The position numbers and the translations under genes are program-made. Below the pieces are notes generated by a model that made no database searches, had not been told where the DNA came from, and was given only the letters and a program-made list of their open reading frames with translations. A DNA stretch of 64,000 nucleotides from Flavipsychrobacter sp. (GTDB taxonomy: Bacteria > Bacteroidota > Bacteroidia > Chitinophagales > Chitinophagaceae), in NCBI GenBank assembly GCA_021155965.1, contig JAJNBJ010000024.1, positions 1 through 64,000 of the forward strand. Reading direction: 5' to 3'. Positions 58,219 through 60,421 of this stretch are shown piece after piece (the first letter of the stretch is position 1; every line of letters begins with the position of its first letter).

Positions 58219-58569
58219 ATGGCACTGCAAAGAAAGTTGAGGGTATTAACGTTTCTGATAACGTTTTCGCTTATCGCATCCACCACAGGCGCACAGGTTG
58301 TTTATTCAACCAATTATGCCAGCGAGGGGGTGAAGGTCTTTGTATCTAAATACAAAAGTGATGCTGACCTGGTGGTCTACAAGTCGAAATATAAGAGTGA
58401 TGCAGACGGCAATGAGGGCGTTTGGTTCTTTACAAATTATAAAAGCGATGCAAAGAAGATCATCTATTTTACCAGCTACAAGAGTGATGCAGACATCATT
58501 ATCTTCTTCTCAGAATATAAAAGCGATGCCGGTTGGCGCAATAAAAACAAACAGCACGTCATGTACTAA
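58219..58569 (+). CDS. DUF6150-like secreted repeat protein
   Basis: This encodes 116 aa. A signal peptide (LRVLTFLITFSLIASTTGAQ) precedes five copies of a short repeat with core YKSDAD, each preceded by a hydrophobic strand (VFVS, VVYKS, VWFFTN, IIYFTS, IIFFSE): V-Y/F-x-S/T-x-YKSDAD. This layout is that of DUF6150. A stacked solenoid or small beta structure is plausible (inference). It stands apart from its neighbours, with ispD divergent at one side and the convergent MGMT-like gene at the other; their stops are 19 bases apart. Confidence 0.7.
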   Translation: MALQRKLRVLTFLITFSLIASTTGAQVVYSTNYASEGVKVFVSKYKSDADLVVYKSKYKSDADGNEGVWFFTNYKSDAKKIIYFTSYKSDADIIIFFSEYKSDAGWRNKNKQHVMY

Positions 58570-59008: not shown

Positions 59009-59078
59009 GATCGGATCATTCTAATGACAAATGTAAGGGAGCCACAGCAAAAGAAAAACAGTTAAATTGCATCCTGAA

Positions 59079-59906
59079 ATGTCGCTGTATATCGCATCGC
59101 TGAATTCGGGGAGTAATGGAAATTGCTATTATGTGGGTAATGACAGCGAAGCTGTGCTGATCGATGCCGGCATATCTTGCCGGGAAATAGAGCGGAGGTT
59201 GCGGCGGCTAAATCTTTCCATCAATAAAATAAAAGCTGTTTTCATATCGCATGAGCATATAGACCATGTGCGTGGCATGCAAGTGATAGCAACCAAGCAC
59301 CAGGTACCTATTTACATTACGGCCGCTACCCTGCAAAACAGCAGGATGAGGATAGACAGCCACCTGGTACGAACCTTCAAACCACATGAACCGGTACAGG
59401 TGGGCGGACTAGCGATAAATGCTTTTCCTAAAGAGCATGATGCGATAGACCCTTATAGCTTTGTAATAGAAGGTAACGGTGTGCATGTGGGTGTATTCAC
59501 AGATATAGGTATCACATGCGAACACCTGATAAGCAACTTCAAAAAATGCCATGCAGCTTTCCTGGAGGCTAATTATGACGAGGTGATGTTGGAAGAGGGC
59601 AACTACCCCATTCACCTGAAAAGGCGGATACGCGGTGGCAAAGGGCACCTATCTAACAAACAGGCACTGGAACTGTTCATGGGGCACAGACCAAGCCATA
59701 TGAGCCACCTGGTACTATCCCACCTTTCAAAGAATAACAATCGGCCAGAGATAGTGAGTGAACTGTTTAGCCCTTATAATAATGAACTGAATATTGTGGT
59801 TGCATCACGTTATAACGAAAGCGAAGTATTCAAGGTATTTTCAGACCCTGCAAATATGCTTAAGAGGAATGCAAAACAAGAAGTGGTACAAGTTTCTTTG
59901 TTTTAA
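59079..59906 (+). CDS. MBL-fold metallo-hydrolase (YycJ-like)
   Basis: I start at the ATG at 59079; a TTG four codons upstream is the alternative. The 275 aa contain the metallo-beta-lactamase signature: SLNSGSNGNCYYVGN at the N-terminus, ISHEHIDHVRGM (HxHxDH, about 57-68), the GVFTDIGITCEHL strand and a late HLVLSHLSKNNN with a metal His. It belongs to the YycJ/WalJ-like group of two-metal phosphodiesterase-type nucleases; the real substrate is unknown. The region downstream begins the tRNA-Pro cassette, and the tRNA-type promoter at 59919 is 12 bases past the stop. Confidence 0.88.
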   Translation: MSLYIASLNSGSNGNCYYVGNDSEAVLIDAGISCREIERRLRRLNLSINKIKAVFISHEHIDHVRGMQVIATKHQVPIYITAATLQNSRMRIDSHLVRTFKPHEPVQVGGLAINAFPKEHDAIDPYSFVIEGNGVHVGVFTDIGITCEHLISNFKKCHAAFLEANYDEVMLEEGNYPIHLKRRIRGGKGHLSNKQALELFMGHRPSHMSHLVLSHLSKNNNRPEIVSELFSPYNNELNIVVASRYNESEVFKVFSDPANMLKRNAKQEVVQVSLF

Positions 59907-59926
59907 TCTCACTTTTCTTAAATTTG
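59897..59926 (+). promoter_or_regulatory. Promoter of the degenerate tRNA-Pro copy
   Basis: TTTG (59897-59900), 18 bases, then TAAATTTG (59919-59926): an exact -33/-7 arrangement. It lies 28 bases before the tRNA-like sequence. The promoter region is itself repeated in front of the intact tRNA-Pro at 60285. Confidence 0.65.
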
Positions 59927-59953
59927 TCATCCAACTTTTATAACCGGAGAATA

Positions 59954-60024
59954 CGGGATGTAGCGCAGCCCGGTAGCGTATCCCGACGCGTCGGGAGGGT
60001 CGCTGGTTCGGATCCAATCATGCT
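59954..60024 (+). pseudogene. Degenerate tRNA-Pro copy
   Basis: The first 23 bases (CGGGATGTAGCGCAGCCCGG, TAG) are identical to the intact tRNA-Pro at 60321. The anticodon arm is replaced by a perfect 16-bp palindrome TCCCGACGCGTCGGGA (59981-59996), so no Pro anticodon remains. The T arm reads CTGGTTCGGATCCAATC with two changes, and the acceptor 3' strand CATGCTA does not pair with CGGGATG. The GIY-YIG gene starts at 60025, the base directly after it. Confidence 0.8.
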
Positions 60025-60282
60025 ATGTTTCACGTTTACATCATAGAATCCGAATCGTCTGGGAAATGGTACTACGGATATACGCAACGAATTCATGAAC
60101 GTATAAGCGACCACAATACAAATCACAGTCATCATACTGGCGGCAAAGGCCCTTGGAAATTAATATTCCAAAGATCATTCGAAGATCAATCTGAAGCATT
60201 GCAGTTTGAAAAGAAACTTAAATCATTAAGGAACAAAGCATATTTACAAAGGGAATACGCTGAGTATTTTTTAAAAATATAG
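60025..60282 (+). CDS. Small GIY-YIG nuclease-family protein
   Basis: This encodes 85 aa. The GIY-YIG core is present as VYIIESESSGKWYYGYT (4-20), with Arg residues in QRIHERISDHN and a Glu in ALQFEKKLKSLRN as the other catalytic candidates. The length equals the stand-alone UPF0213-type members. GIY-YIG domains cut DNA in homing endonucleases and repair nucleases; the function of small members is not settled. It starts at the 3' end of a degenerate tRNA-Pro copy and ends 38 bases before an intact one. It could be read from the tRNA promoter at 59897. No other nuclease or integrase gene is near. Confidence 0.85.
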   Translation: MFHVYIIESESSGKWYYGYTQRIHERISDHNTNHSHHTGGKGPWKLIFQRSFEDQSEALQFEKKLKSLRNKAYLQREYAEYFLKI

Positions 60283-60284
60283 TT

Positions 60285-60292
60285 TACATTTG
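60285..60292 (+). promoter_or_regulatory. -7 element of the intact tRNA-Pro gene
   Basis: TACATTTG, an exact TAnnTTTG, ends 28 bases before the tRNA. The following TTATCCA-TTTTAT-ACCGGA-AATACGGG corresponds base for base to the leader of the degenerate copy, with small changes. Confidence 0.6.
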
Positions 60293-60320
60293 TTATCCAT
60301 TTTTATTTATACCGGAAATA

Positions 60321-60394
60321 CGGGATGTAGCGCAGCCCGGTAGCGCACTACGTTCGGGACGTAGGGGTCGCTGGTTCGAATCCAGTCATCCCGA
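60321..60394 (+). tRNA. tRNA-Pro (CGG anticodon)
   Basis: It folds completely in 74 nt: acceptor CGGGATG/CATCCCG with discriminator A, D arm GCGCAGCCCGGTAGCGC, anticodon arm CTACG-TTCGGGA-CGTAG (CGG), variable loop GGGTC and a T arm with TTCGAAT. CCA is not encoded. A terminator hairpin starts two bases later. Confidence 0.95.
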
Positions 60395-60396
60395 CT

Positions 60397-60421
60397 AAGC
60401 AGGTCAGAAAGGCCTGCTTTT
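60397..60421 (+). terminator. Terminator of tRNA-Pro
   Basis: AAGCAGG (60397-60403) pairs with CCTGCTT (60413-60419), with TTTTC following. Confidence 0.7.

Follow-up and report, generated by a model that had tools for sequence, protein, structure and literature searches.

A hairpin-bearing tRNA copy and a minimal GIY-YIG nuclease form a recurrent tRNA-linked unit in Bacteroidota

We found that a tRNA-linked nuclease unit, seen in a 64,000-nucleotide stretch of DNA from a Flavipsychrobacter species (contig JAJNBJ010000024.1, positions 1 to 64,000; hereafter the window), is not a single occurrence but is widespread in the phylum Bacteroidota. The unit would comprise a defective tRNA copy that carries a hairpin (tRNA*), a minimal GIY-YIG gene and a duplicated tRNA half with either the promoter or the terminator side. 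We consider it rather probable that this is a selfish element with a nuclease as its only gene, housed in tRNA genes, in which the working tRNA is rebuilt from the native and the duplicated halves. The original prediction, made on the window alone, had pictured a small mobile cassette that brings its own tRNA-like structure, uses the tRNA promoter and leaves a functional tRNA behind; our data bear it out in part.

The features of the window are listed in Table 1. As had been predicted, the promoter, the leader and the 5' half of tRNA-Pro occur twice: the two 29-bp direct repeats are identical, and each copy has its own -7 element, for which we assumed a TAnnTTTG-type consensus. From repeat to repeat the unit measures 367 bp. 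Its tRNA* has kept the 5' acceptor strand, the D arm and the T arm (positions 59997-60021 align with tRNA-Pro positions 45-69 with 92% matches), while the anticodon arm is replaced and the 3' acceptor strand is lost; the ATG of the nuclease gene follows directly on its end. ARAGORN and Rfam gave no tRNA call for this first copy. On the palindrome of 16 bp, the GIY-YIG gene and the intact tRNA-Pro 38 bases behind it, sequence, ARAGORN, Rfam and alignment agree. The pattern TCCCGACGN{0,12}CGTCGGGA occurs once in the 4.25-Mb genome, at the palindrome of the window. Folded alone, the first copy does no better than its shuffles (z 0.56), and its structure is therefore argued here from the comparison across loci, where the pairing of the hairpin is kept. 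Further upstream in the window, a small ORF (58219-58569) consists mostly of repeated YKSDA peptide motifs.

Table 1. Features of the window, and of four loci with tandem units that lack the nuclease (in coordinates of the locus).
Feature	Position	Strand	Basis or remark
Left flanking gene, metallo-beta-lactamase-like by eye, synteny marker	59067..59906	+	ORF
-7-type promoter element TAAATTTG, first tRNA copy	59919..59926	+	by eye
29-bp direct repeat, 5' copy (leader end and tRNA-Pro nucleotides 1-25)	59950..59978	+	identical to 60317-60345
tRNA*, hairpin-bearing defective tRNA-Pro copy	59954..60024	+	sequence, alignment
Perfect 16-bp palindrome TCCCGACGCGTCGGGA, stands for the anticodon arm	59981..59996	+	like hairpins at other loci
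GIY-YIG nuclease gene, 85 aa, single catalytic domain	60025..60282	+	ORF; PF01541, E 2.2e-16
-7-type promoter element TACATTTG, intact tRNA, right behind the nuclease stop codon	60285..60292	+	by eye
29-bp direct repeat, 3' copy	60317..60345	+	identity with the 5' copy
Intact tRNA-Pro(CGG)	60321..60395	+	ARAGORN; Rfam, 64.8 bits
Terminator-like hairpin and T run behind the intact tRNA	60397..60421	+	by eye
Nuclease-less tandem units, L033	1034-1390		
Nuclease-less tandem units, L031	977-1383		
Nuclease-less tandem units, L036	2740-2890		
Nuclease-less tandem units, L236	from about 1120		

A protein search detected relatives of the window protein in 167 of 294 genomes of the same family. The family loci were taken from the matches listed, minus the 12 lowest-ranking places; a search of genome contigs added one locus (L036), and removal of 11 overlapping loci by sequence reduced the collection from 158 to 147. 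It holds 108 distinct family loci, among them one (L179) that was picked for its hairpins and not for a protein match. An intact tRNA on the same strand lies within 500 bp in 100 of these 108 loci, within 200 bp in 97 and within 60 bp in 81, with 121 tRNA calls on the same strand and 0 on the opposite one. By our own arithmetic (34 tRNA genes in 4.25 Mb), a same-strand tRNA within 200 bp would be met by chance in about 0.3% of cases. The partner tRNAs belong to 13 isotypes, confirming that the tRNA type beside the nuclease varies. Eight ARAGORN calls were set aside by rule as hairpin copies, although one of them, for Arg in L015, could be genuine. Among the eight family loci without an intact tRNA, four (L012, L055, L084 and L106) are close to the end of the sequence stretch (1-409 bases away), two (L015 and L026) have as their sole tRNA call one that was set aside by this rule, and in L016 a hairpin copy adjoins (G087:C2:120703); at L079 neither a locus end nor a hairpin copy explains the absence. 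A profile search across the phylum gave matches in 250 of 395 genomes. The best 30 loci include 27 from other families, and 24 of these 27 have a tRNA; the remaining three start at the edge of their locus, 8-53 bases from its end. The association is general, as had been suggested. When the arrays picked as arrays are included, the other families contribute 39 loci, 34 of them with a tRNA, and a single opposite-strand tRNA (L195) appears among them.

The first copy in the window had been described as degenerate. The comparison speaks against random decay, and we regard it instead as one case of a recurrent hairpin-bearing tRNA copy. Such a copy was found in 108 of 134 loci, and a short search gave none in the other 26. 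Aligned to its own tRNA, the piece inserted into tRNA* is mostly a palindrome of the form T...A or of the CCTGCC...GGCAGG type. Its site varies with the lineage: it lies in the anticodon arm or its loop in the Ala, Lys, Val and Pro loci, around positions 39-50 or in the T arm in Asp, in the T loop in Glu, Leu and Asn, and in the D loop in most Arg(tct) loci. At the hairpin no base of the tRNA is lost in the Glu, Leu and several Arg loci. Perfect arms of at least six bases are present in 98 of the 108 copies versus 43 of 134 intact tRNAs, and arms of at least seven bases in 84 of 108 versus 17 of 134. As only 48 of the 108 copies beat all 40 shuffles of their own sequence, single loci are weak evidence and the set is strong evidence. 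The hairpin sequence changes while its pairing is kept. When the right halves were dealt anew, the outer six bases were fully paired in 10.8 cases on average and in 18 at most, compared with 49 of 70 in the real set. Additionally, among 105 distinct strings the sixth and the seventh pairs are Watson-Crick in 100 and 90, respectively, with three types of pair each, and the eighth is Watson-Crick in 35 of 75 strings. For both the re-dealing and the sixth- and seventh-pair tests, the loci were not chosen on the pairing tested.

The string pattern with which we searched for tRNA* fixes only the outer five pairs and includes the tRNA flanks. It occurs in 77 of 294 genomes, with one match for the reversed control. 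A typed tRNA on the same strand lies within 600 bp in 28 of 30 pattern loci; at the remaining two there is only an untyped tRNA call, which is perhaps the copy itself. The nuclease is present in 12 of these 30 loci, and 18 have none in the 3-kb locus. That tRNA copies could be older than the nuclease gene had been named as a finding that would speak against the cassette, and these 18 loci leave room for it.

The unit comes in two layouts. In 99 of 134 loci the intact tRNA stands upstream of the nuclease gene, and in 35, including the window, downstream. The order of the window, tRNA-like sequence, nuclease, intact tRNA, is the minority arrangement. In 29 of the 35 loci with the nuclease first, the nuclease stop codon falls within the tRNA or precedes it by no more than 7 bases. 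This geometry is what speaks for the proposed use of the tRNA promoter by the nuclease, and the window departs from it with its 38-base spacer and the second -7 element. A terminator-like hairpin separates the tRNA from the nuclease in 43 of the 99 tRNA-first loci, so that nuclease expression there may be low. Of the 108 family loci, 25 contain two or more nuclease matches. The largest array has 15.5 copies with a period of 360 bp and 99% matches beside one tRNA-Asp; across the arrays the unit length is about 300-400 bp. The intact tRNA is at the 5' end in 14 of 15 multi-copy loci examined (two of them in L051) and at the 3' end in L047, and arrays anchored at the 3' end also occur in other families (L181, L182, L183 and L186). 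Of these, L182 has the design and the isotype of the window, with a 5' tRNA-Pro part, the hairpin, a short stretch and the ATG.

Each nuclease lineage is tied to one or a few tRNA isotypes. On a tree of 147 nuclease proteins, the isotype (134 rows) requires 26 changes versus 83-96 when shuffled, the layout 14 versus 25-34, the hairpin class (98 rows) 30 versus 50-56, and the host genus 118 versus 129-137. A smaller tree of 105 proteins, of low resolution with 9 of its 102 inner branches starred, gave 20 isotype changes versus 59-72. Physical linkage alone could produce this fidelity.

GIY-YIG is the only Pfam match of the window protein, which has Tyr, Tyr, Arg, His and Glu at the positions expected for the superfamily; we take Y5, Y16, R26, H30 and E62 to be the catalytic ones. 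In 23 aligned nuclease sequences Y5, I6, Y16, G18, R26, H30, E62 and K66 are invariant. The nearest solved structures are of UPF0213 and SLX1 proteins (1zg2, E 6e-16; 1ywl, E 2.3e-14; 7cq2, E 3.5e-9), which score far better than the weak matches to homing endonucleases (phrog_314, E 1.7e-4; I-TevI, E 0.003). The 85 residues include no separate DNA-binding domain. Judged from dN/dS values of about 0.02-0.19 in the five closest pairs of the same isotype, the nuclease gene is under purifying selection; more distant pairs are near or past saturation. The genome of the window encodes four further GIY-YIG domains, and none of their 3-kb loci contains a tRNA; two small GIY-YIG genes of this genome are at L004 and L005, likewise without a tRNA in the 3-kb locus. 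A plasmid search returned one yazA relative, on a Bacillus plasmid among genes of housekeeping type, and a phage search two weak matches. We dismissed a viral origin, as scans of viral contigs gave two matches of 19 residues (L213 and L214). In both of these contigs, the match is to an Asp-type nuclease.

Occupied and empty alleles stand at one and the same site, as is typical for homing genes. We compared an orthologous tRNA-Pro(ggg) locus within one genus: of 14 genomes, four (L198, L199, L204 and L208) carry the nuclease and seven have an intact tRNA without it; of the remaining three, two are cut short by the contig end and the third, L211, has neither tRNA nor nuclease. L208 reaches the contig end, with the start of a second unit visible. 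The L198 insert follows tRNA nucleotide 27 and opens with the hairpin, and removal of 316 bp, bounded by 30-bp direct repeats, yields the empty allele across the promoter and the tRNA. The insert consists of the GIY-YIG gene and little else. Downstream of this locus the flanks differ between the species. On the opposite side of the tRNA, several of the tRNA-Pro(ggg) loci bear hairpin copies that are decayed or lack the nuclease, and an empty site therefore need not be one that was never invaded. For the window itself, we compared 29 congeneric loci: L119 (genome G296) has the same left gene and a tRNA-Pro(cgg) but no nuclease, and the other 28 have no tRNA behind the left gene, partly due to short flanks. 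The checks proposed with the original prediction thus came out largely in its favor.

How such a unit could spread is suggested by its anatomy. The nuclease would break an uninvaded tRNA gene, or branched DNA of the kind that the palindrome can form; we propose this initiating step on the model of SegB from phage T6. Homologous recombination across the tRNA half that both share would then repair the break and copy the unit in, presumably also on its way between genomes, or amplify it in tandem. A crossover to the left of the hairpin would give the order tRNA*, nuclease, intact tRNA as in the window, and one to its right the order intact tRNA, nuclease, tRNA*; in either case the native half and the duplicated half would make up one intact tRNA. 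If the tRNA overlaps the end of the nuclease gene or starts directly behind it, its production by the host would hardly be possible without transcription of the nuclease. Several observations weigh against a selfish element. With an intact tRNA beside the gene, an enzyme that cleaves tRNA genes would be expected to put its own copy at risk. The closest proteins are UPF0213 and SLX1 and not homing enzymes, and the small protein has no DNA-binding domain apart from the catalytic one. Finally, there are the tRNA* loci without a nuclease (18 of 30), the loci without a hairpin copy (26 of 134) and those without an intact tRNA (8 of 108), and the fact that only 48 of 108 copies do better than all their shuffles.

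Four known systems invite comparison. Integrative elements with tRNA genes as their targets bring along a replacement for the tRNA end, and here, too, sequence borne by the element would keep the host tRNA whole. They encode an integrase, in contrast to the present unit of about 300-400 bp with its single nuclease gene (we found no integrase or recombinase in the 316-bp insert), and here the duplication may concern either half of the tRNA. REP palindromes go with RAYT transposases, which have a Y1 (HUH) domain; the combination of a single nuclease-type gene with palindromes, and of palindromic copies without the gene, is similar, but the domain here is GIY-YIG and the palindromes lie inside tRNA copies. 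For the GIY-YIG proteins of the UPF0213 and SLX1 groups we know of no linkage to tRNA genes. In behavior, the closest of these systems is SegB of phages, a longer protein than the 85-residue nuclease. According to the part of the SegB paper available, SegB is a free-standing GIY-YIG homing endonuclease of T-even phages that cuts in tRNA genes and is required for the tandem amplification of the tRNA-segB segment (PMC13096335). The likeness is that of a GIY-YIG nuclease beside tRNA genes of many isotypes (PMC13096335, same part), and the reverse complement of the SegB motif RAWTSGAAC given there is, in our own reading, the T-loop sequence, the site of the Glu and Leu hairpins. SegB differs in that it belongs to phage genomes, and that part of the paper describes no hairpin-bearing tRNA copy, no lineages tied to isotypes and no rebuilt host tRNA. 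A paper on the GIY-YIG superfamily (PMC1564403), searched by keyword, mentions tRNA in three places: for an Slx1-like fusion and in two references. A literature search, with subscription journals mostly outside its reach, gave among the papers listed no description of a chromosomal tRNA/GIY-YIG element. Because a defining feature of integrase elements and one of REP/RAYT systems are absent and the likeness to homing is one of anatomy, the unit may be a new kind of element in its anatomy that works like a homing endonuclease. We give an even chance to the further view that it represents a new class of mobile element, with tRNA* as its core, a UPF0213/SLX1-like GIY-YIG protein as the mobiliser, nuclease-less arrays as non-autonomous forms, and a host held by the transcription-dependent supply of an essential tRNA.

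The same observations can be read without a selfish element. The nuclease or tRNA* could be a domesticated host device that helps to express or process tRNA, in such roles as a tRNA-like leader or a regulator RNA, with the arrays tuning dosage. Both the hairpin pairing and the nuclease sequence look selected, tRNA* without a nuclease stands beside intact tRNAs in 18 of 30 loci, and in 29 of 35 loci of the window layout the nuclease leaves no space behind it for a tRNA promoter. A host function should be steadier, however, than a gene that is present in 167 of 294 family genomes and in 4 of 14 at one locus, and the 13 isotypes and two layouts do not fit well either, which makes this reading unlikely in our view. 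We see still less in favor of a toxin-antitoxin-like pair, in which the GIY-YIG protein attacks tRNA and tRNA*, in repeated copies, acts as a cleavage-resistant decoy. It would account for the missing normal anticodon arm in tRNA* of many isotypes, for the repeats of tRNA* and for nuclease lineages that go with isotypes; yet the hairpins also lie in D or T loops, tRNA* often stands without a nuclease, and to our knowledge RNA would be an unusual substrate for a GIY-YIG enzyme, so that we hold such a pair to be very improbable.

Passive accumulation, already weakened by the data, is to our mind just as improbable as the decoy. Here tandem duplication of tRNA genes would have left dead copies into which REP-like palindromes settled, with the nuclease hitch-hiking. 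In 16 of 17 genomes the string TCCCGN{0,8}CGGGA is indeed commoner than its reversed control, though terminators add to its count, and tandem tRNA* units without a nuclease exist. But in genomes with two scored elements, the hairpin class clearly differs in 8 of 11 by our own reading (same in 1, unsure in 2), the class follows the nuclease tree (30 changes versus 50-56), and the hairpin sites within the tRNA recur. A reading as dispersed REP sequences appears improbable: the exact window palindrome occurs once in the genome of the window and hairpin classes mostly differ within a genome, although the bare palindrome type is common.

If the reading as a selfish element is correct, many families of one phylum harbor elements that measure about 300-400 bp, reside in genes among the most strongly constrained in the cell, and have no evident parts other than a nuclease of about 85 residues and a hairpin. 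Tandem repeats and pseudo-tRNAs next to tRNA genes would then have an explanation, and there would be a route to new tRNA copies (compare the tRNA-Asp bodies with a GCC anticodon described below). It would also extend nuclease-driven tRNA amplification from phages to bacterial chromosomes.

Some further loci are worth recording. At L178 (G055:C1:5403500-5418500), tandem repeats of 283-370 bp lie in a region with TCCCGATGCAATCGGGA-type hairpins, where the searches used for the other loci found neither a GIY-YIG nuclease nor a tRNA; this locus was set aside. Nuclease-less tandem hairpin-tRNA units of about 73-117 bp stand upstream of an intact tRNA at L033, L031, L036 and L236 (Table 1); some units of this group stop in the T loop after GGTTC, and those of L031 have two hairpins. 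In four genomes (L216, L217, L219 and L226), hairpin copies without a nuclease lie beside a Thr-Tyr-Gly tRNA cluster. Finally, L176 contains a long array of tRNA-Asp copies (121-1434), many at a spacing of 101 bp and with hairpin copies interspersed, in which three tRNA-Asp bodies have a GCC anticodon and are called as tRNA-Gly.
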